From: Ruminococcus sp.
Lineage (GTDB): Bacteria > Bacillota > Clostridia > Oscillospirales > Ruminococcaceae
Length of the DNA stretch: 34,785 bases
Direction of reading: 5' to 3'
NCBI GenBank assembly: GCA_017519415.1
Contig: JAFWSI010000035.1
Location: 1-34,785 of the forward strand
Shown here: in pieces, positions 20,443 through 34,785 of the stretch
Layout: every line of letters begins with the position of its first letter
Position numbering within the stretch: position 1 is the first letter of the stretch
The notes under the pieces: generated by a model
What the model was told of the DNA's origin: nothing
Seen by the model: only the letters and a program-made list of their open reading frames with translations
Database searches by the model: none
Position numbers and translations under genes: made by a program

Positions 20443-22566
20443 TCAGTCCGTACCGAGCTGAGTAGCAGCTCCCACGAATATCGGCACATTGTTCTTATCG
20501 ACTATCATGTATACGAAGGGCTTGTCAAGACGGATGACAACGTGTCTGATCTTGCGCATTGACATTCCGCCCATGGCAGCGCCTACCAGTGTAGCTGCCG
20601 CCGCCTTTGTTCCCGTCTTTGAGACCTCGATCTTGGTCTTGTGGATCACCTTTTCGATGTATACATTATCCGAGCCCGGAACAGTCTGATCGTAAAGCCT
20701 TGAGAAGTCTGCAAAAGCAGGTGAAAATGCGTCCTTAACACCGAGGTCCTTGAGTATTTCCGGCAGATCGATGGAGTAGTTGTAATCGAACTCCGGTATC
20801 ATTACCTGAAGATCCAGATCATACTCATCCGACTGATAGGGCTTTGTAAGAGCCTCGGAAAGCTTCTCTGAGTCAAGATCCTTTATGTACTGTACAACGT
20901 CCTTGTCTCTCGGCATTATGCCTACGAAGTAGTAATCGTCGTTCATATAGGGCTTCTTGAAGATGTCAGCGTCCTCCGTCTCGTAGTAGAGAGACTCCGT
21001 GCTGCGCATTTCCTTTATGTTATGGGTCACACCGTCAAGATCGGTGAATTTTCCGTCCACAGTTGTATCATACTTCTTTGCCCAGTCCATATCGAAGTAA
21101 AGGGCGTTTATAAGAGCGAGAACGGTGTCTTGAGTGAAGGTGTTCTTGTCGGCGATCTTGGGTATCATTCCGTTGGTATTCTTGTTCACCCAGCTGTTTA
21201 CGTCCTTAACGGTATCCATACCGAAATCAGCCTTATATATCTCTGCCCCGTAGTACCTCTTATTAGCCTCGAGGAAGCTGTCACAGGGTTTGAATGCAGA
21301 AGAATCCTTGCACCATAACGAGTTTGCCACACTGAGCACCTCGCCGCTCTTATCGGGCAGATTGCCGAGATAATATGCCATATACTCGTTTATATCATCA
21401 ATGGAAAGAGTACCTCCGCCGAGCACGTTCTCAAGCTCGCTGAGGGTATTGTTATCGGCGCCGTTGGTTATCATTGACAGTGCCGAGGTAATTGAGAAGG
21501 GCGAGATAAGGAGGTTCTTGTCGTCTCCCTTGGGATCGAAGCTCTTCTTTAGTATATCCACGCCGAACTTCATCTGAGCCGCCGCAAACTTTTCGTCCGC
21601 AGCCTTGCCCTCAGATTGCTGAACGCTGACCGTGTTGTCAAGGCGCACGCTTCCGATCTCGCCGACAGCGTTGAAGCCTGTCTCCTGTCCGAGCAAGAAG
21701 GCGGAGAGCTGTGCGAGATCCTCCTCGCTTATCTCCTCGTCGCCGTCTATATCCGCATTGAGGAACTCCTCGCGGGTCAGCTGTCTTGAAAGAGTGCCGC
21801 TGATGTACTTCTTGTAATCCAGCAGATCGAAGGTATCGACCACAGCGTCATCGTTAATATCTCCGTAATAATGGATCCCCAGGCGCTTTACACTGATGAG
21901 CTTGTCCATACGGTACGACAGATCGGAAGAGCCTATGGTAAAGCCTCCCCAGATATAATTCTCCTTCAGTTTCGGATCAACATCTTCTTCCGGATCAAAG
22001 CCCAGATCGGGATTCAGAAACGGATCGGTCTGCTCCTCGGCACCGGGCGAATTCCTCCATTCGCTGTTCACTGCCGACGCGTCATCATTCCATTCCATGG
22101 TATTCCAGTTGAAACCGTTGCCGGATGAGTCCCAGCCCTCCCAGCCGCTGCTGAAGTCCTGCTCCGAAGGATAGGAAACGATATTGAACTCCCTGTAGAA
22201 ATACCGCGACTCAAAGGTAATATCCACCGCCACGCCAGTCCCGATACTTCTCAGGACGTTAAGATCATCCTCGTCAAGAGCGGAAATATCGAAATAGATA
22301 TTTCTGGCTCCCCAGCCGACATAGTTGTCGTACTGTAAAACAAGTAACGGGGTATCGTATACATTTTCAATACGGACAAATTCATAGCCCGTGAGCTCAT
22401 ATACATACATCTTATTGTCGGTATTGTAGCTGATAGAGCCGTATGCGTCGATGATCTCAGCCGAAGCGTCCGGCATTCTGCCCGGCAGAGCCGTAAATGC
22501 GCCCACAGCAAGAGCCATTGCCAGCGAGCCTGCCATAAGCTTCAGAAATTTCTGTCTGCATTTCAT
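20443..22566 (-). CDS. Secreted cellulosomal serpin with internal dockerin
   Basis: 707 residues: signal peptide (about 1-36), an unrecognised N-terminal region (about 37-230, acidic and Trp-rich near GWEGWDSSGNGFNW), dockerin (about 235-295; GDINDDAVVDTFD and ADIDGDEEISEED), and serpin (about 315-707). LLISPFSITSAL, the FADFSRLYD region and DKPFVYMI are serpin landmarks. The reactive-loop hinge is GTKAAAAT, with P15 at Gly652 and P14 at Thr653. Its small residues mark an inhibitory serpin, which traps a protease by loop insertion. Counting gives P1 near Met665/Gly666, suggesting a subtilisin- or elastase-like target. The start at 22566 has GGAAGGAG 8 bases ahead; the frame's earlier TTG at 22587 is rejected. 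Dockerin-serpins probably protect cellulosomes. Confidence 0.92.
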   Translation of the reverse strand: MKCRQKFLKLMAGSLAMALAVGAFTALPGRMPDASAEIIDAYGSISYNTDNKMYVYELTGYEFVRIENVYDTPLLVLQYDNYVGWGARNIYFDISALDEDDLNVLRSIGTGVAVDITFESRYFYREFNIVSYPSEQDFSSGWEGWDSSGNGFNWNTMEWNDDASAVNSEWRNSPGAEEQTDPFLNPDLGFDPEEDVDPKLKENYIWGGFTIGSSDLSYRMDKLISVKRLGIHYYGDINDDAVVDTFDLLDYKKYISGTLSRQLTREEFLNADIDGDEEISEEDLAQLSAFLLGQETGFNAVGEIGSVRLDNTVSVQQSEGKAADEKFAAAQMKFGVDILKKSFDPKGDDKNLLISPFSITSALSMITNGADNNTLSELENVLGGGTLSIDDINEYMAYYLGNLPDKSGEVLSVANSLWCKDSSAFKPCDSFLEANKRYYGAEIYKADFGMDTVKDVNSWVNKNTNGMIPKIADKNTFTQDTVLALINALYFDMDWAKKYDTTVDGKFTDLDGVTHNIKEMRSTESLYYETEDADIFKKPYMNDDYYFVGIMPRDKDVVQYIKDLDSEKLSEALTKPYQSDEYDLDLQVMIPEFDYNYSIDLPEILKDLGVKDAFSPAFADFSRLYDQTVPGSDNVYIEKVIHKTKIEVSKTGTKAAAATLVGAAMGGMSMRKIRHVVIRLDKPFVYMIVDKNNVPIFVGAATQLGTD

Positions 22567-22611
22567 GAAAAAAACTCCTTCCGTCAAGATTTGAACGTTA
22601 TTTGTGGTTAA

Positions 22612-23744: not shown

Positions 23745-24548
23745 CTATATGGAGCGTATCCTTTCGGCGGAATCGCTTATTTCCGCCCATGAGTAGTCTA
23801 TCATATACTCGCCGTGGTAGGCATTCAGGACAGCAACATTTCCTGCAAAGAGGTCGTAGAGATCGCAGTCCACTGCCTCCTTGTTCACCTGTATCTGGCG
23901 GTTCTGCTTGATTATGACATTATTGAAGCCCGCCGCTTCAATGTCCTTGATAAGATCCGAGACATACTGCGATACCTTTTTGGAGGTGGGTCTGTCGAAA
24001 TCCTCCACCTCGAGGACGTCGGAGGCTATCTCCTTGCTGGTGACAGGGTAGCCGCACTGATCTATGAGGTAGGCAAATATCTCCTTGGAAATGGTGCGGG
24101 AGAAATGCAGGGGCTTGCCGTCACTGCCGAACACACGGAAATTGCCGAAGGTACGCACCTTCAGCTTGCCCGCGGACTTTGTCTCGGGCTCTGCGTGGTA
24201 TCTGAAGTGCTCGAACTCGTTCCTGATGTCCTCCTCGGTATAGGGCTTCATTATGTAGCCGCTGGGACGCATCTGGATAGCTGCAAAGGCGTACTCCGAA
24301 TAGCTTGTAACGAAGACGATATTGCACATGGGTGAATGCTTTTTGAGCTCTATCGCCACCTGTATGCCCGAGATCTTGCCTATGCGTATATCGAGGAAAG
24401 CGGCGTCGAAGGTATCCTTTTCCTCGTATTCAAGGAACTGCGCCGCTCTTCTGAAGGGCACTATCTCCGCGTCGGGACATACCTTCTGCAAGGTGTCCAC
24501 CAGCAGCTGGAGAGCAAATTTTTCATCATCTATCGCCAGAATTTTCAT
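23745..24548 (-). CDS. Response regulator, REC plus SARP/BTAD-like output
   Basis: 267 residues: receiver domain (about 1-120) with acidic Asp7/Asp8, phospho-acceptor Asp53 (AFLDIRIG) and the conserved Lys in IMKPYTEED. This is followed by a winged-helix/BTAD-type output (about 135-267; RTFGNFRVFGSDGKPLHF, then DCDLYDLF and HGEYMIDYSWAE). This is the SARP-like class of regulators, not the LytTR class usually paired with LytS kinases. The start at 24548 has AAAGGAG about 6 bases ahead. It overlaps the end of the kinase gene by 23 bases, so the two are translated together. The operon may be autoregulated through the palindromes upstream of the kinase. Confidence 0.88.
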   Translation of the reverse strand: MKILAIDDEKFALQLLVDTLQKVCPDAEIVPFRRAAQFLEYEEKDTFDAAFLDIRIGKISGIQVAIELKKHSPMCNIVFVTSYSEYAFAAIQMRPSGYIMKPYTEEDIRNEFEHFRYHAEPETKSAGKLKVRTFGNFRVFGSDGKPLHFSRTISKEIFAYLIDQCGYPVTSKEIASDVLEVEDFDRPTSKKVSQYVSDLIKDIEAAGFNNVIIKQNRQIQVNKEAVDCDLYDLFAGNVAVLNAYHGEYMIDYSWAEISDSAERIRSI

Positions 24549-25845
24549 TTGTTTTCTCCTTTGGCACAAGAATTATACATTCCGTTCCCTTGTCGGGAGC
24601 GCTGTTTATTATGAGCTGACCGCCGCACTCGTCCTCAAGGCGCTTGCGGACATTTGCTATACCAACATGGTTCTCGCCGATATTATCGAGAGTATCCATT
24701 TCAAAGCCCGCACCGTCGTCCTTGATGACTATCTTATGGAACTCCTCTGTCTCCTCTGTGGATACGGATACGGTACCGCAGCCGCTTTCCGAGCCCGTGA
24801 TACCGTGCTTCACAGCGTTCTCCACAAGAGGCTGCACCGTAAGCACCGGAAGCATGAACATCTCGTCCTTTATATCGAATTCCACATCAAGGTCATCATC
24901 GAACCTGAGCTTTTCAAGGGAGAGATACACCTTTGTATGCTCCAGCTCCTCCTTTATGCTGACAAGACCGCTTCTGCTCATAGCCTCGAGATTTTTCCTG
25001 AGGTATTTTGAAAAGTCCATGAGAGCGTTCTTTGTCTTTTCCGTATCCTTGTCGCAAAGGTAGATTATGGACGTCAGAGAATTGTACATGAAATGAGGCT
25101 GTATCTGTGAAAGGGACAGCAGACGCTGACTTTTTTCCAGTTCCAGCTCGCTGGTCCTCAGCTTTATCTTTATCTCGCTCTGATAAATGGCAATGAGGTA
25201 GAAGTAATAGATCAGCACGTCTATGGCGACGATCTCGTCCAGCACATCCACCACGAAATAAGCCGCCTCAAGGTAGCAGGTCAGCAGGGTGATGAAGACT
25301 ATGAACACCACAGTTATGCCCTTTTTGATATTCTTCTCCTTGAAAAGGTCTATGGAATACCTCAGGAGGAGGAACAGATATATCATAGCTGCGAAATAGG
25401 GCAGCAGGAACGCAGGACCGTCATGGTATCCGAGTCCGTCGTCATAGCTGAATATGATCTTGGGACCGAAGCCGTTGACTGCCTCAGAAATAATGACCGC
25501 AAGCTCGGGAATGAACATCAGCTTCTTTTGGGTCACGGGAGCTATTACCAGCAGCTCCACATAAGCTATCAGGGGATAGAGGATATGCTCCACCGATGAG
25601 CCCAGATACATGAAGGACTTTGATATGTCATCATGATAGTTGATATACGGGTCGTAGAGTGCCTTCATGAACCACTCCTTCATGGTGGAATTGAAAACGA
25701 TCATAGCCAGCATGATAACGATAATATGTATGTATTCCGTACCGTGGGGACGCTCCTCACGGTTTTCGACGAGCATGACAACGATCCCGAGAATGAGGGC
25801 CGCGGAAATATAATTATAGCTCAGAAGATGCTGAAAGACCTCCAT
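24526..25845 (-). CDS. LytS/YehU-type sensor histidine kinase
   Basis: 439 residues. Six or seven membrane segments (about 1-225) form the sensor, then a coiled-coil (KLRTSELELEKSQRLL) leads to a His_kinase domain with phospho-acceptor His251 in QIQPHFMYNSL, and an HATPase domain with VQPLVENAVKHG (N-box) and IKDDGAGF (G1). The membrane part resembles 7TM receptor-type sensors and lacks a large outside domain. The start at 25845 has AAGGAG 7 bases ahead; an in-frame GTG one codon earlier is less likely. The gene is first in a two-gene operon with the regulator and has a leader of about 190 bases containing hairpins. The signal is unknown. Confidence 0.9.
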   Translation of the reverse strand: MEVFQHLLSYNYISAALILGIVVMLVENREERPHGTEYIHIIVIMLAMIVFNSTMKEWFMKALYDPYINYHDDISKSFMYLGSSVEHILYPLIAYVELLVIAPVTQKKLMFIPELAVIISEAVNGFGPKIIFSYDDGLGYHDGPAFLLPYFAAMIYLFLLLRYSIDLFKEKNIKKGITVVFIVFITLLTCYLEAAYFVVDVLDEIVAIDVLIYYFYLIAIYQSEIKIKLRTSELELEKSQRLLSLSQIQPHFMYNSLTSIIYLCDKDTEKTKNALMDFSKYLRKNLEAMSRSGLVSIKEELEHTKVYLSLEKLRFDDDLDVEFDIKDEMFMLPVLTVQPLVENAVKHGITGSESGCGTVSVSTEETEEFHKIVIKDDGAGFEMDTLDNIGENHVGIANVRKRLEDECGGQLIINSAPDKGTECIILVPKEKTNENSGDR

Positions 25846-25886
25846 CACATCACTCCTTCCCCCGGAGCCGCCCTGTCAGCGGCAGA

Positions 25887-25916
25887 TTAAAGATTTACCA
25901 TAAGATGTGGTATAAT
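25887..25916 (+). promoter_or_regulatory. Plus-strand extended -10 promoter in the regulatory gap
   Basis: TTAAAG, 18-base spacer, TATAAT (25911-25916), with TGG before it. It drives rightward from about 25923, away from the kinase and into a region ending at the terminator near 26195. Palindrome 1 begins inside its -10. Confidence 0.45.
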
Positions 25917-25936
25917 GTTCGGTTACGATCATTATA
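25911..25936. repeat. Palindrome 1 (near-copy of palindrome 2)
   Basis: Half-site TATAATGTTCG, centre GTTA, then CGATCATTATA. It differs by one base from palindrome 2, 113 bases away; the shared repeat continues through ACATAT. Its right arm can also pair with TATGTTATAAT at 25954-25964 (an 11-bp alternative hairpin, 25931-25964). Confidence 0.85.
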
Positions 25937-26023
25937 ACATATAAGCGAAGCGTTATGTTATAATTGTCCGATTGCAGGGAGCAGATCCGTGATCTGCGTA
26001 TCTGCAAGGACATTGAAATAATT

Positions 26024-26049
26024 TATAATGTTCGGTTACGAACATTATA
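26024..26049. repeat. Palindrome 2 (perfect 11-bp half-sites)
   Basis: TATAATGTTCG, GTTA, CGAACATTATA. It covers the -10 and start point of the minus-strand promoter that drives the sensor kinase operon, so it is well placed as an operator. Confidence 0.85.
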
Positions 26050-26072
26050 ACATATTAATTAATGTTTGTAAA
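26044..26072 (-). promoter_or_regulatory. Probable promoter of the kinase-regulator operon
   Basis: On the minus strand, TTTACA (26072-26067), 17-base spacer and TATAAT (26049-26044), with TGT before the -10. The start point falls within palindrome 2. The leader of about 190 bases also holds GCAGATC-CGT-GATCTGC (25981-25997). Confidence 0.6.
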
Positions 26073-26169: not shown

Positions 26170-26195
26170 AAACGCCCCTAAACAGGCGTTTTTTG
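26170..26195 (+). terminator. Rho-independent terminator of a short plus-strand transcript
   Basis: AACGCC and GGCGTT form a 6-bp stem with an 8-base loop, followed by TTTT. It would end a transcript of about 270 bases from the 25911 promoter; no convincing gene lies inside. Confidence 0.55.
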
Positions 26196-26217
26196 TGGAA
26201 CCGCGTGGAACAGGCTG

Positions 26218-26226
26218 TGTTATACT
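26218..26226 (+). promoter_or_regulatory. Extended -10 promoter of the structured RNA
   Basis: TG-T-TATACT without a good -35, as usual for extended -10 promoters. Transcription would begin near 26232. Confidence 0.5.
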
Positions 26227-26231
26227 ATGAT

Positions 26232-26617
26232 CAAGGATATGAGATAAATATAGGCAGAGGAACGTGAGGCGTACAGCGGAAAAACTGCTGAATGGCGCAG
26301 CAGTTCGTAAGCGGTGCGACGGCATCGCTTACAAACGCCTCCGCTCCCACTGTTGGGCGATACGGCAGCACGAGGCTGCAACAAAGGCGGACAGTCCGCC
26401 GAATGAGCCCCATATCCGAAAATGAGGAAAGAAAACATGATCAAATAAGCAAAGGCTGTCCCCGCAGGGATGTGAGACTGCGGCGGCGGCATTATGGCAG
26501 CGGCGACGGCATGCGACCGCTGCAAGGGGTAGAGGTCTTTCGGGGGGAGGATCTGCAATGTTCTTCATTGCTACAAAAAAATACTTTTTGTGCGCAGCAA
26601 TTCGGCTGCGCTTTTTT
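26232..26617 (+). ncRNA. Large structured RNA of unrecognised class, about 385 nt
   Basis: A GC-rich, densely folded, non-coding transcript with its own promoter and terminator. GGATATG (26235-26241) pairs with CATATCC (26411-26417) to close a multi-branched domain. Inside it are GAGGCGT/ACGCCTC (26266-26272 with 26335-26341) holding two hairpins (26283-26305 and 26307-26332, the latter 10 bp), and GCAGC/GCTGC (26365-26379) and GGCGGA/TCCGCC (26386-26400). A second domain has CCGCAG/CTGCGG (26462-26483), GCAGCGG/CCGCTGC (26497-26523), and GCAATG/CATTGC (26555-26571). The loops at 26316-26325 and 26503-26512 share GCGACGGCAT. AGCGGA (26275-26280) may form a pseudoknot with TCCGCT (26340-26345). 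No conserved landmark of RNase P, tmRNA, 6S, SRP or group I/II introns is seen. HEARO/omega-RNA, ROOL or GOLLD types remain to be tested. Confidence 0.6.
26592..26617 (+). terminator. Rho-independent terminator of the structured RNA
   Basis: GCGCAGC and GCTGCGC (7 bp, 6-base loop) followed by TTTTTT. There is no plus-strand gene in the preceding 2.9 kb, so it must end the RNA. Confidence 0.85.
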
Positions 26618-26708
26618 CTTTGTCAGCCTGTCCTCGCAGAGGTCGGGCAGCCCTTCTGCAATATTGTATTCTCATTATGACCGATAGTGTCATAACGCCT
26701 GAAATCCA

Positions 26709-26737
26709 TTGACACTGCGCTGCGGAAATGGTAAAAT
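26709..26737 (+). promoter_or_regulatory. Sigma-A promoter for the GH74 gene
   Basis: Perfect TTGACA, 17-base spacer, TAAAAT, with TGG before the -10. The gene is transcribed separately from the structured RNA. Confidence 0.8.
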
Positions 26738-26798: not shown

Positions 26799-29633
26799 AT
26801 GAAAGCATTGAAAAAGACATTGGCGGGTCTTTGCGCTCTCTGCCTCAGCTTCGGCTCCGTGTCCGTACCAGGCACATCGGACAAGGCAGTCACAGCTTCG
26901 GCAGCCTCAAAGGACATCTCCTCCGCAATGGAGTGGGATACTCTAAAAATAGGCGGCGCAGGCTTCGTTTCTGGCATTGTAACGGGAAATAAGGAAATGT
27001 ATCTCCGTACGGACGTAGGCGGTGCGTACAGATACGACTACGACAGAAAAAGGTGGGTGCAGCTCTTCGGCTTTATAAACGAGGACGACAGAGGACTTCT
27101 CAGCTGCAAGGGTATCGCCATTGATCCCAAGGACGATATGACTGCTTACTTCCTCTGCGGCTGCGCATACTTCTCTGACGCAAAGACGGTGATCTTCAAG
27201 ACCACTGACGGCGGCAGGACCTTTACGGGCGTTGACGTCACAGAGCATATACAGGTCCACGGCAACGGCGACGGACGCGAGTGTATCGAGCCTATCGCAG
27301 TTGATCCCGACGATCCCGACACTATCTACGCAGGCGGCGACGTAACCGCAGGCAAGTCCGCACTTATCAAGTCTACGGACGGCGGCAAATCATGGAAGCC
27401 TGTAGAGGGCTATGACGCACTTGGACTTTTCAAGGGTGAGCTGAAATACCCCTCATGGACAGACCACATGGTAAGAGGCACAGAGCCCAGCAAGCTCTAC
27501 AACGAGCAGAACGGCATCGGCTGCGTTTATATCGAGGGCGGCAAGGTATATGTCGGCACCTCCGTAAAGGGACAGGCAAATATCCATGCAGCAAGCGTAA
27601 AGGACGACAAGTTCGAGGCCATCAAGGCGCTTCCCAACGACAACTATCCCCTTTCCATAACCAGCGACCACAACGGAAATCTTTTCTTCACATACATCGG
27701 CGGCCTTGCATTCGCAGGCGGCACAGGCGGCGCATACAAGTACAACATTGCCTCGGGTAAGGCCGAAAAGCTTTCGGTATCCGACAATGCAGTCGGCATG
27801 ATCGAGGTGGACAGAAAGGACCCCAACAAGATGTTTGCACGTACCTGCGGCATATGGTCGGCTCAGTGGTGCGCCGAGGAGTGGATACAGGACGACCCCA
27901 GCACTCCCGAAAATGAAGGCACTATCGCATGGGGCGACTACTTCTTCCGCTCGGATGACGGCGGAAAGACATGGGAGAACATCACTCCCGGCCAGGGCAC
28001 CAGCGACTACTCGACAGGCACGGAGGTCAAGACCTTCAGCTCCCTCCCCCTTGATACAAACGGGTATGACTGGATATACGGCAAGGCCTGCCACTGGGGC
28101 AGCGGTATCCTCATCGATCCCAGAGACCCCGAGGGCGACCGTATCCTCCTCACATCGGGCAACGGCGTTTTCGCCTGCGACAACGCATGGGACAAAAGCG
28201 GCATACAATTCTACTTCCAGCCCGACGGCGTCGAGGAGTGCGTAAGCCTTGACTTCGTGAGCACAGCCGACGGACTTGATCTCTCGGCGATAGGCGACTA
28301 CGACGGCTTCGTTCACGAAACAGCATACGGCATACCTCAGCAGTACAAGCCCAACATGGGCTCCACCTCCGCAATAGCAGTATGCCCTCAGAACACCGAC
28401 GTATGGGCAAGAACTGCCAACGGCGACGGCAACAACACCGGCAGCGGCTACTACACTCTCGACCGCGGCAGGACATGGAAGACCTTCAAGCCTGCCTGCA
28501 CAGGCGGAAAGCTTTCCATTACAGAGCTTTCAAAGGGCAAGTACAGGATAATAAATTCAAGCCCCAAGGGCGCAGTCTCCTACACCGACGACTTCGGCGC
28601 CACATGGAAGACCTGTTCGGGCATACAGGCTTCAAAGACCGTTTATACTCTCGTTGACCCCAAGGACGCCAGGACAGTTTACGCAGCAGGTGCTAAGTAC
28701 AACGAGTACTGGTCATCGGATATGTCCAAGAAGGAGCCTACCTACGACGAGTCACACTACTCATACTACATAAGCGAGGACTACGGCGCGACTTTCACGG
28801 AGACCCGTATCTGCCCCTATAACTGGGAGCTCACATGGAAGTTCGAGGAAACAGGCGACCTTGCATATCTCGGCGACGGCACTGTAGCCTTCGCAGGCGC
28901 AAATCAGGGCGTTTACATAATCTCCGACAAGGGAAAGACGGTTGAGCACCTTGAGAACGTTGAATACGCTAAGTGTATCGGCTACGGCGCTCCTGAAAAG
29001 AGCGGCGGCGTAAACACCCTCTTCATCTACGGCAGACCCGAAAAGGACGACAAGGAGGGCATCTACCGCTCCACAGACGCAGGAAAGACATGGGTGTGCA
29101 TAAATACCGACCACCTTTACGGCGGCACGGGCAACGGCAACTACATTGTGGGCGACATGGACGAATTCGGCAAGGTATATATGTCAACGGTAGGCTGCGG
29201 TATCGTATACGGACAGCTCTCCGACGGCAGCACCAAGCCCCCTGTGACTTCAACCACCACAAAGCCTGTCACTACCACTACAAAGAAGATCACCACGACC
29301 ACAACTACCACATCGTCCGTAACCACAAGTTCGTCCGTCACATTATCTGTCATTAATTTCGAGTACGGGACCACAACAACTGCCGACAAGGACTACAAGG
29401 CAGGCGACGCCAACTGCGACGGCGGAGTTGATATGTCTGACGCAGTCCTCATAATGCAGGCGCTTTCAAATCCCAACAAGTACGGCCTTAACGGCAGCGA
29501 CAGGAACCATATAACGGAGCGCGGCAGAAAGAATGCCGACTGCTCGGGCAGCAGCGACGGTATGACCGTCAATGACGCAACGGCGATACAGAAGTATCTC
29601 CTTGGCGCTGCAGATTCTCTGCCCGTAAAATAA
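26799..29633 (+). CDS. Cellulosomal GH74 xyloglucanase with C-terminal dockerin
   Basis: A 944-residue secreted enzyme: signal peptide (about 1-33), twin beta-propeller GH74 domain (about 40-815), Thr-rich linker (about 820-860), dockerin (about 868-944). The propeller shows many DGGxTW/TF blade motifs (TTDGGRTF, STDGGKSW, SDDGGKTW, STDAGKTW). Candidate catalytic aspartates are Asp72 in YLRTDVGGAYR and Asp500 in IGDYDGFVH, matching the paired Asp of the family. It would cut the glucan backbone of plant xyloglucan. The dockerin repeats (GDANCDGGVDMSD and ADCSGSSDGMTVND) are further apart, with a longer insert, than in the other three dockerins here, so it may bind a different cohesin class. 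AAAGGA precedes the start. Confidence 0.94.
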   Translation: MKALKKTLAGLCALCLSFGSVSVPGTSDKAVTASAASKDISSAMEWDTLKIGGAGFVSGIVTGNKEMYLRTDVGGAYRYDYDRKRWVQLFGFINEDDRGLLSCKGIAIDPKDDMTAYFLCGCAYFSDAKTVIFKTTDGGRTFTGVDVTEHIQVHGNGDGRECIEPIAVDPDDPDTIYAGGDVTAGKSALIKSTDGGKSWKPVEGYDALGLFKGELKYPSWTDHMVRGTEPSKLYNEQNGIGCVYIEGGKVYVGTSVKGQANIHAASVKDDKFEAIKALPNDNYPLSITSDHNGNLFFTYIGGLAFAGGTGGAYKYNIASGKAEKLSVSDNAVGMIEVDRKDPNKMFARTCGIWSAQWCAEEWIQDDPSTPENEGTIAWGDYFFRSDDGGKTWENITPGQGTSDYSTGTEVKTFSSLPLDTNGYDWIYGKACHWGSGILIDPRDPEGDRILLTSGNGVFACDNAWDKSGIQFYFQPDGVEECVSLDFVSTADGLDLSAIGDYDGFVHETAYGIPQQYKPNMGSTSAIAVCPQNTDVWARTANGDGNNTGSGYYTLDRGRTWKTFKPACTGGKLSITELSKGKYRIINSSPKGAVSYTDDFGATWKTCSGIQASKTVYTLVDPKDARTVYAAGAKYNEYWSSDMSKKEPTYDESHYSYYISEDYGATFTETRICPYNWELTWKFEETGDLAYLGDGTVAFAGANQGVYIISDKGKTVEHLENVEYAKCIGYGAPEKSGGVNTLFIYGRPEKDDKEGIYRSTDAGKTWVCINTDHLYGGTGNGNYIVGDMDEFGKVYMSTVGCGIVYGQLSDGSTKPPVTSTTTKPVTTTTKKITTTTTTTSSVTTSSSVTLSVINFEYGTTTTADKDYKAGDANCDGGVDMSDAVLIMQALSNPNKYGLNGSDRNHITERGRKNADCSGSSDGMTVNDATAIQKYLLGAADSLPVK

Positions 29634-32309: not shown

Positions 32310-33002
32310 TCATTTCACCGTAATACTGCCCTCGGTGAGATGCTCGAAGGCGAACTTCTCGAAGGACATATCGTTTTCAAAATTGCGGAACATATCCGAC
32401 TCCATGTAATAGTAGCCCAGCTTGTACACAGCTCCGGGCTGAGCGTTATCGGGCACCTTGAAGTAGAAAGTTGCAATATCGCCGTCCAGTCCGTCGTTTT
32501 CCTTGAAGATAGTCGCAAAGAATACCGAGCGGAGATGCTTCTTTATAAGCTCGTCATGGAGATTTCTGCGCCAGTCTCTTGCTTCAAAGCCCATATTGAG
32601 CTCGCAGGCGTCGCCCACCTTGTACTTGGGCACCAGATCCTCCTCGTTGCGGAGCTGACACTCCAGCACATCGGGATATGTTATGTGTATACCGCACATA
32701 TTCCATTTCTGCTGAGCGCCTCTTACAGAGACGGTCACCTCCGCGATCTCGCCGGCAGAAACGGTGGTATCGCTTATCTTTATAAAAGGTCCCCCGTCAA
32801 TATCGGGGACATCCGCGTACTTCTGACGCATGAGCTCCATGCTGTCGGATACGCTGCCCTGATTTCCCTGAGCTGAGCCCCCGCTGCCCGATACGGCAGT
32901 ACCGCCGCTCTTCGGCGTGCTTTTCTTTGTGTCGGAGCAGCCCGCCGCACAGGACAGAGCCAGCGACAATGCAAGAGCGGCTGCTGCGAATTTATGCTTC
33001 AT
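32310..33002 (-). CDS. Lipoprotein with a single cohesin-like domain
   Basis: 230 residues. The lipobox ends at Cys22 (SCAAGC), followed by a Ser/Gly/Lys-rich spacer (about 23-60) and one beta-sandwich domain (about 72-230). The domain follows the cohesin pattern: a first strand and turn (IKISDTTVSAGEIAEVTVSV), GIHITYPDVLE at the position of the 'yD..vLe' strand, RSVFFATIFKENDGLDGDIA for the 'v.flf....g..dGvla' stretch, FYFKVPDNAQPGAVYKL, and a closing GSITV. Cohesins bind dockerins, so a lipid-anchored one would fix cellulosomal enzymes to the membrane. The start is in-frame with AAAGGAG 10 bases ahead and overlaps the end of clpC by 11 bases. The cohesin call is by eye; a generic Ig-like domain is the alternative. 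Confidence 0.62.
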   Translation of the reverse strand: MKHKFAAAALALSLALSCAAGCSDTKKSTPKSGGTAVSGSGGSAQGNQGSVSDSMELMRQKYADVPDIDGGPFIKISDTTVSAGEIAEVTVSVRGAQQKWNMCGIHITYPDVLECQLRNEEDLVPKYKVGDACELNMGFEARDWRRNLHDELIKKHLRSVFFATIFKENDGLDGDIATFYFKVPDNAQPGAVYKLGYYYMESDMFRNFENDMSFEKFAFEHLTEGSITVK

Positions 33003-34785
33003 CTTCCGGCTTCTCCTTTCTTCCCTCAACGAAGAGCTCACCGTCCCTGACGGAGATCTCTATCCTGTCAACCTCAGAGGCGTGCTCGATGATTATATCA
33101 GCCACCTTGTCCTCAATATCCTGACGGATAACGCGGCGAATATCTCTTGCGCCGTAGGGCTTTCCGAAGGATTTCTCGGCGATGAGCTCAAGAGCCTCGC
33201 GGGTATATCCGAGAGTTATGTTCTTTTCGGCAAGGGGCTCCTTCATCTCGTCGAGAGTAAGAGCTGCAATGTCGGCGTAATTCTCCTTTGTGAGATCCCT
33301 GAACACGACTATCTCGTCGATACGGCTTATGAACTCGGGGCGGAGGAAGTCTCTCAGACCCTTCATGGCCTTATCGCGGGTTATCTCGTTTTCCGTGCGG
33401 TTGAAGCCCACGCCTATGCTCTTGTCGGTAGAGCCTGCGTTGGAGGTCATGCAGATTATTGTATTTGCAAAGTTTACCGTTCTTCCGTGAGCGTCGTCCA
33501 CCTTGCCCTCGTCAAGTATCTGCATGAGTATATTCATAACGTCGGGATGTGCCTTTTCTATCTCGTCAAAGAGTATAACGGAATAGGGCTTGCGGCGCAC
33601 CTTTTCGGTGAGCTGTCCCGCCTCGTCGTAGCCTACATAGCCGGGGGGCGAGCCTATCATTCTCGCAACGGAATGCTTTTCCATATATTCCGTCATATCC
33701 AGTCTGATAAGCGGGTCGGGAGAGTCGAAAAGCTCCTCCGCCAGCACTTTTACAAGCTCCGTCTTGCCCACGCCCGTAGGTCCCACGAATATGAAGGAAG
33801 CGGGTCTGCGGCGCTTGCTGAGCTGAACTCTCGTGCGCTTTATGGCTCTTGTGAGAACTCCCACAGCCTCGTCCTGACCGAGGACTCTCCTCTTGAGAGC
33901 CTCCTCGAGCCTTGCTATCTTCAGGAATTCGTTCTCGGCTATCTTGCTTGCGGGGATACCCGTCCAGCGCTCAACGACCTTGGTGACGTCGGACTCCTCC
34001 ACGCTGACGTTTTCTGCCTTTTCCCTGAGCTTATCCTCGTTCTCGCGGAGGTGTATGAGCTTGCCCTTCACCTCTGCAAGAGCCTTGTAATCTATCTCTT
34101 CCTCCTCGGACAGGTATTTTTCCTTATCCTGGAGCTCCTTTACTTCCTTCTTGTACTTCTCGTACTCGCCTATTTCGGGAGAGCGTATGGAAGCGTACGC
34201 GCAGCTTTCGTCCAGAAGGTCTATGGCTTTGTCGGGCAGGAAGCGGTCTGTGATATAACGCTCGGAGAGCACCGCGCACACTCTCACAAGGTAATCGGAG
34301 ATATGCACTCTGTGGAACTGCTCGTAGTATTTCTTTATTCCCACCAGTACCTCAACGGTCTCCTCAATGGTAGGCTCGTTTACGGTAACGGGCTGGAAAC
34401 GGCGCTCGAGAGCGGAGTCCTTTTCGATGTACTTGCGGTACTCGCCGAAGGTGGTAGCTCCTATGACCTGCACCTCGCCTCTCGAAAGAGCGGGCTTGAG
34501 GATATTTGCAGCGTTCATGGAGCCCTCGGAATCTCCTGCGCCCACAAGGTTGTGCACCTCGTCGATGAAGAGTATTATATTGCCCTCGCGCTTTACCTCG
34601 TCAACAAGACCCTTCACACGGCTCTCGAACTGTCCGCGGAACTGAGTTCCCGCAACGAGAGCTGTGAGATCAAGGAGGTAGAGCTTCTTGTCCGTAAGGT
34701 TGAAGGGCACATTGCCCTCGTTTATGCGCAGAGCAATACCCTCTGCGATAGCGGTCTTGCCCACGCCGGGCTCGCCGATAAGGCA
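32992..34785 (-). CDS. clpC: Clp ATPase, ClpC type (N-terminus outside the window)
   Basis: 597 residues are visible; the gene continues past the right edge. The fragment begins in the first P-loop ([16 protein letters not shown]), then shows Walker [15 protein letters not shown], a short middle coiled-coil (about 200-260), the second P-loop [10 protein letters not shown], Walker [13 protein letters not shown], and the C-terminal D2-small domain. The short middle region favours ClpC over ClpB, and IGVGF is in the place of the ClpP-binding loop. ClpC unfolds proteins for ClpP and is part of general protein quality control. The downstream cohesin-like gene overlaps its 3' end by 11 bases, so they share a transcript. 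Confidence 0.92.

Follow-up and report, generated by a model that had tools for sequence, protein, structure and literature searches.

A candidate regulatory RNA gene divergent from a two-component system in Ruminococcus, with a changed body in one genome

The stretch of DNA analyzed here (the window) is 34,785 nucleotides (nt) long and comes from Ruminococcus sp. (GenBank assembly GCA_017519415.1, contig JAFWSI010000035.1). At 26232-26617, a preliminary description made from the letters alone had placed a large folded RNA of unknown class, and we examined this element together with the genes on its two sides, namely those of a two-component system, which are directed away from it, and that of a secreted hydrolase, called GH74 here after the label in that description, which follows it in the same direction. 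The features of the RNA gene and its promoter are listed below.

26195..26211, plus strand: direct repeat GTGGAAC-CGC-GTGGAAC, the proposed response-regulator box, a pattern shared with the genomes that bear the kinase
26218..26226, plus strand: extended -10 element TGtTATACT, 9 nt after the box; a sigma-70 two-hexamer scan does not list it
26231..26252, plus strand: conserved 5' leader, GGATATGA..., found by blastn of 26200-26252 in three other genomes
26232..26617, plus strand: RNA gene of about 385 nt, placed by fold, promoter and terminator, with a presumed start site at about 26233
26263..26343, plus strand: three-way junction made of a stem and the hairpins 26283-26305 and 26307-26332 (mean pair probabilities 0.88, 0.82 and 1.00)
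26365..26400, plus strand: pair of hairpins (mean pair probabilities 0.98 and 0.89)
26455..26523, plus strand: two long hairpins in the second half (mean pair probabilities 0.97 and 0.98)
26533..26554, plus strand: hairpin whose loop is G-rich (G run 26542-26547; mean pair probability 0.92)
26553..26617, plus strand: 3' tail with TTCATTG (26564-26570), a hairpin and the terminator, homologous to the orthologues by alignment
26592..26617, plus strand: predicted intrinsic terminator

The stretch 26232-26617 has a minimum fold of -157.3 kcal/mol (z -5.54), which none of 100 shuffles equaled, and refolding against 60 shuffles gave z -6.22, supporting a large folded RNA at these coordinates. The minus strand of the same stretch also folds well (z -4.44, or -5.0 in the comparison set with the orthologues). 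At least nine helices had been counted by eye, and we found 13, each of at least three pairs, with pair probability above 0.5; the mean exceeds 0.8 in ten of the 13. The extended -10 element and the terminator that had been described were both recovered at the positions listed. The closing stem that had been drawn around the whole is a feature of the minimum-energy fold alone; neither the centroid nor the set of helices above 0.5 includes it, and in that set its position is occupied by the local hairpin 26533-26554. The repeated GCGACGGCAT does occur in exactly two copies (26316 and 26503), but each spans stem and loop rather than lying in one of two loops. Likewise, the guanine-plus-cytosine content of the RNA stretch (0.52-0.57) is far above that just upstream (0.33-0.34), as had been noted for both flanks, but not above that of the downstream GH74 gene (0.51-0.60). 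With its own terminator and strong fold, and with terminators at all 18 loci described below, the element reads, by sequence, as a stand-alone structured transcript, and 26232-26617 looks like a well-bounded stand-alone RNA gene of which orthologues exist.

The scan against Rfam that the preliminary description had proposed returned no significant match to a known RNA: the window has none at the gathering score, and the eight matches at E-value (E) ≤ 10 (best E 0.89) are all far under their gathering scores. Nine of the 17 orthologous loci were scanned as well, with no match at the gathering score, and this, together with the covariation in the orthologues, supports a structured RNA outside the curated families. 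A kinship with HEARO, ROOL or GOLLD had also been suggested. The models of these three are in the Rfam library (HEARO as RF02033, according to the preliminary description), and the likeness extends to size and dense folding only, for they are among neither the matches at the gathering score nor the eight at E ≤ 10. Searches of phage and plasmid collections with the window RNA gave no match at E 1e-5, and among the 14 window open reading frames (ORFs) scanned with Pfam there is no nuclease, transposase or phage family, the sole near-exception being an AAA+ ATPase with a weak internal TniB-like match. The proposed kinship is therefore not supported, and a phage or plasmid origin was set aside on the same null result in those collections. 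Overall, the preliminary observation is partly confirmed and its interpretation partly supported, and the context that explains the element, which that description had missed, comprises a two-component system divergent from it, a direct-repeat box and orthologues whose core differs.

The genes of the two-component system lie upstream of the RNA on the opposite strand.

23745..24569, minus strand: response regulator, with a likely start methionine at 24548, a receiver domain and a probable winged-helix DNA-binding domain
24526..25848, minus strand: membrane histidine kinase, with Pfam His_kinase (PF06580) and HATPase_c
26044..26072, minus strand: promoter-like site of the kinase gene, TTTACA-17-TATAAT, a consensus match only

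The first half of the kinase holds six hydrophobic segments, and its promoter-like site is directed away from the RNA, so that the kinase and regulator pair is divergent from the RNA gene. In the regulator, Response_reg matches at E 1.7e-16, whereas Trans_reg_C reaches 15.0 bits, under its cut-off of 26.2. The regulator orthologues are 84-88% identical, and 14 of 16 match Trans_reg_C at E ≤ 1 (best E 0.027). At 25911-26055, in the interval from the start of the kinase to its promoter, lie about 1.3 units of a 113-base-pair (bp) repeat with a TTCGGTTACGANCATTATAACAT core; allowing at most two mismatches, this core is found at seven places in the genome, namely two here, three in contig C41 (113 bp apart), one in C69 and one in C44.

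No -35 element for the RNA promoter was matched in the consensus scan, and the direct repeat stands in the region before the extended -10. We searched for its pattern, GTKGAACNNNGTGGAAC, in a set of 125 genomes of the genus and found it in 19, exactly those with a close orthologue of the kinase, and in none of the other 106; read backwards, the pattern is nowhere in the 125. The geometry is fixed, with 7+3+7 nt and then 9 nt to the -10 at 19 of 19 loci, and in the window the two half-sites are identical, making this repeat more perfect than those of the orthologues. The pattern occupies 27 places in total, 20 of them at the RNA locus (one genome, G069, counts twice for two contig ends) and seven elsewhere. 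Judged by eye, four of the seven are upstream of one gene that has its own promoter nearby; among the others are one on contig C69 of the window's genome, with no clear -10, and one apparently within a coding region. In G008, G022, G059 and G011, copies reading GTGGAACTTTGTGGAAC (L139, L146, L148 and L158) precede one orthologous gene (MTDKEFRKLK...) at a matching position, well before the promoter-like site that this gene has of its own. A second box copy, GTTGAACTTTGTGGAAC, at L156 (G118:C2:352039-352055) stands 7 nt before a TATAAT. The gene behind it has a signal-peptide-like start and a probably secreted product, and may be a protein-coding member of the same regulon.

When the RNA itself (26200-26640) was compared with the 125 genomes by blastn, only its first 53 bases matched beyond itself, in three genomes. 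The kinase as bait reached further. It matched 39 of the 125 genomes at E ≤ 1e-30, and in 19, the window's genome included, the match has E below 1e-180 and 64-71% identity to the window kinase and counts as a close orthologue; the remaining matches are 30-45% identical. In the named records, the close relatives comprise strains of R. flavefaciens and Ruminococcus bins from the rumen (16 close among the best 80 of 151). An RNA gene stands beside the kinase at all 18 loci with enough upstream DNA, and box, extended -10, leader, TTCATTG and terminator are present at every one of these; the 19th locus, G069, is split, with the kinase contig stopping inside the RNA and the core lying on another contig beside GH74. 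The order regulator, kinase, box, GH74 is kept at 16 of 16 named loci. Upstream of distant kinase paralogues, 11 loci (L028-L038) show no RNA-like block, and single windows at L035 and L036 reach z -3.1 to -4.7 (25 shuffles each).

These loci also bear on whether the transcript might be the messenger of a small protein. No reading frame of note had been seen in the preliminary description; there are in fact ORFs of 131 amino acids (plus strand, 26292-26687) and 112 amino acids (minus strand, 26220-26558) over the window RNA, and nine of 17 orthologues have a frame of 24-80 amino acids from the same leader ATG. Neither window frame, however, has a Pfam match and the longer one extends beyond the terminator, while the leader-ATG frame is missing in eight of the 17, varies threefold or more in length and differs in its letters past the leader. 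With no frame common to all the orthologues, we regard a small-protein messenger as highly improbable.

The usual form of the RNA was described from an alignment of the first ~130 nt of 17 orthologues, 11 in group A and six in group B, from which the window sequence and the incomplete L025 were excluded. The core has a 5' hairpin, outer and inner stems, and a pair of hairpins, of which one carries a GGGGG loop. This loop, on its conserved stem, is invariant in all 17 and mostly unpaired (0.38-1.0), and the stretch between the core and the terminator is not conserved. In the alignment, two-sided changes occur in 13 of 35 pairs (7 of 500 shuffles reach this) and in 28 cells (none of 500), with a covariation score of 0.235 (none of 500); because relatedness is lost in the shuffles, such counts are not probabilities. 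When 18 rows are aligned by fitting them to the model, a procedure that favors it, the changes are found in 16 of 35 pairs and 40 cells, and none of 500 shuffles is as high on any of the five measures. A model of this core (R1) was then searched with strict filters that let few candidates be scored per genome, and it was found in 19 of the 125 genus genomes, 18 of them at E ≤ 1e-19 and all of these with the kinase; in a family sample of 396 genomes, searched in the same manner, one was found, of the same genus. The remaining match, in G016 (E 1.5e-4, 61 nt, L137), was set aside as probable chance because it adjoins the start of a gene in a genome that lacks the box. What the sequences show is the anatomy of the gene, its orthologues, a core with covariation, and box, kinase and RNA coinciding genome by genome.

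The window RNA departs from this family in its body, which is different and larger. Among the 19 genomes, its own alone has no R1 match, and with filters off R1 scores 7.6 bits on the leader only (26238-26252); the core fold with the GGGGG loop, present in the 18 other kinase genomes, is absent here. Promoter, leader, tail and genomic place are those of the family. The last 65 nt align with the orthologue L024 at z 7.9, and z is above 3 for 13 of 17 orthologues, scores that owe part to the shared terminator. The body, by contrast, gave no alignment with the five of 17 orthologues tried (mid-part z -1.7 to 0.1) and was found neither elsewhere in its own genome, where it is single-copy, nor by blastn outside itself in the 125 genus genomes, nor in the family sample of 396, for which two candidates per genome were scored. 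Its folding is stronger than that of the orthologues (z -6.2 versus a mean of about -3.4), and it also opens with a three-way junction. That the G-rich loop of 26533-26554 stands in for the orthologues' GGGGG loop is a guess. In the kinase tree, the window is a long branch among lineages that have the usual form (supports 0.8-0.9, root weak), suggesting that its body is the derived one. From these sequences, the window copy looks like a derived form in which promoter, leader and tail were kept and the body was changed. One could instead suppose that the locus is decayed or invaded here, an unrelated structured stretch having replaced the body and left a non-working RNA. The missing matches to R1, to the five orthologues and to the family sample fit this idea, as does the dispersed repeat that entered the same intergenic stretch. 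We nevertheless think it very unlikely, since box, -10, leader and tail are kept, the repeat of the box is more perfect than in the orthologues, and the body folds more strongly than theirs and is single-copy.

Our preferred interpretation, held with moderate confidence, is that the element is a stand-alone regulatory RNA and the output of the adjacent two-component system. The kinase would sense a signal and phosphorylate the response regulator, which in that state would bind the GTKGAAC direct repeat standing in for a -35 box and, together with the extended -10, switch on transcription of the RNA. The RNA would end at its own terminator and then act post-transcriptionally, most likely by using exposed stretches, for instance the invariant G-rich loop found in the usual form, to base-pair with messenger RNAs (mRNAs) from elsewhere. 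Transcription, regulator binding, activation and action in trans are steps that we infer from the sequences, and each is testable because the RNA is linked to a single kinase, regulator box and locus.

The best reading likens the arrangement to three known ones, agr/RNAIII, VirSR/VR-RNA and FasX. In group A Streptococcus, FasX is a small RNA whose gene lies in its own two-component locus (FasBCA; PMC7602753), and the RNA gene here is placed in the same way; the two sequences were compared through Rfam only. VR-RNA of Clostridium perfringens, controlled by VirS/VirR, is given as 386 nt from start to terminator in PMC4963840 and PMC4691137, close to the 385 nt or so of the window RNA, and its host is likewise a Gram-positive anaerobe. 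It differs in the VirR motif and spacing, CCAnTT-15-CCAGTT (PMC4963840), and in that vrr is not beside virSR there. RNAIII of the Staphylococcus aureus agr system is described in PMC7602753 as a structured RNA divergent from the genes of its controlling two-component system, and the window RNA, too, is structured and divergent from genes of this kind. Unlike RNAIII, which also encodes a peptide, the Ruminococcus orthologues share no frame, and no agrB/agrD-like genes were recognized among the window ORFs scanned. The kinase and regulator belong to other Pfam families than AgrC and AgrA, and the window RNA has no Rfam match although RNAIII is among the Rfam models. An RNA as the output of a two-component system is thus a kind already known, and the unusual part is the changed body of the window copy. 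For R. flavefaciens itself, no small RNA is described in the literature searched, a weak negative as subscription papers were mostly outside its coverage.

The gene downstream suggests another possibility, a regulatory element acting in cis.

26709..26737, plus strand: promoter-like site of the downstream gene, TTGACA-17-TAAAAT, a consensus match only, beyond the RNA terminator
26799..29633, plus strand: secreted BNR-repeat hydrolase of the Sortilin-Vps10 and BNR families ('GH74' in the preliminary description)

The RNA could be a leader of GH74, a riboswitch or attenuator with the junction domain as sensor and the terminator as switch. It adjoins GH74 in the same direction at 16 of 16 named loci, its conserved junction domain is followed by a terminator, and in some orthologues the 5' arm of the terminator has seven-pair matches to the core (lowest z -2.4). 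On average, however, this pairing is no better than in shuffles by a simple test (mean z -0.50, n=18), the stretch from core to terminator is not conserved, and GH74 has its own promoter-like site past the terminator. Moreover, GH74 is present in 117 of the 125 genus genomes and the box in 19, so this neighbor need not be the target of the RNA. A leader acting in cis is, in our estimate, quite unlikely.

Pairing of the RNA with the start of GH74 was scored at 17 loci, L013 being dropped as no GH74 start was recognized within 1500 nt, and the mean z against shuffled targets was -0.67, ranging from +1.3 to one outlier of -5.2 (L012). Pairing of TTCATTG with start codons had also been considered and was dropped because pairing with the GH74 start was unsupported and the accessibility of the motif is middling (0.16-0.66 in 17 orthologues, 0.29 in the window). 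That GH74, the only mRNA examined, gave no sign of pairing would suit an RNA that, like CsrB or 6S RNA, binds a protein (as a sponge or a scaffold) instead of pairing with mRNAs, as would the invariant purine-rich GGGGG loop on its conserved stem in all 17 aligned orthologues. Against this, Rfam returned no match to known protein-binding RNAs and the window copy is without the loop motif; we judge a protein-binding role to be rather unlikely.

Several observations weigh against the regulatory RNA that we prefer, the GH74-start pairing result among them. The DNA-binding domain of the regulator is a weak match while the receiver is clear; matches of the regulator in the PDB lie mainly over the receiver, and its predicted structure is unusable (predicted local distance difference test, pLDDT, 41). 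OmpR/PhoB-family regulators bind direct repeats, and for PhoP (PMC4832192) the 7-bp motifs need a 4-bp spacer, a 3-bp spacer being bound about 20-fold worse; the spacer here is 3 bp. As for the fold, further pair types are not raised in the 17-row alignment (155 of 500 shuffles as high), its two-sided pair changes were matched in the 7 of 500 shuffles given above, group A by itself does not clearly exceed its shuffles (94 of 500 and 87 of 500 as high, and 28 of 500 for the covariation score), and support for the second hairpin is weak, with 54-64% of cells paired. The minus strands of the orthologues also beat their shuffles, at a mean z of -2.46 versus -3.38 for the RNA strand. Finally, the window RNA is without the conserved core and GGGGG-loop motif and may therefore do something else.

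If the regulatory reading holds, cellulolytic rumen Ruminococcus would offer a signal-controlled RNA gene, and the window copy raises the question of whether the body of a regulatory RNA can be replaced while its promoter and ends stay. A more far-reaching proposal, which we regard as doubtful, is that the main dedicated output of this two-component system in rumen fiber-degraders is an RNA whose ends are fixed and whose body can be exchanged, a modular effector RNA that evolves by body replacement and is tied to plant-fiber metabolism. The structured middle would then bear the specificity and have been rebuilt across species, as group A, group B and the wholly different window form of about 300 nt, a notion that we likewise put forward only tentatively.

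Some further observations concern the surroundings of the RNA. An NCBIfam glycosylhydrolase model matches the BNR-repeat hydrolase below its cut-off, and the GH74 orthologue match at G022:C21:109664-112342 contains one stop codon. Just upstream of the promoter-like site of GH74, at 26675-26695, lies TTATGAC-7-GTCATAA; a block resembling it, with GTCATAA kept, is present in the inspected orthologues and may be an operator of another regulator. In L016 (R. flavefaciens ND2009), a GC-rich repeated sequence is inserted between the RNA terminator and GH74. Elsewhere in the window, a 243-amino-acid ORF (32310-33041, minus strand) has a weak cohesin match under the cut-off (E 6e-4), and the gene at 20443-22587 (minus strand) combines dockerin and serpin domains, that is, a protease inhibitor that could dock to a cellulosome.
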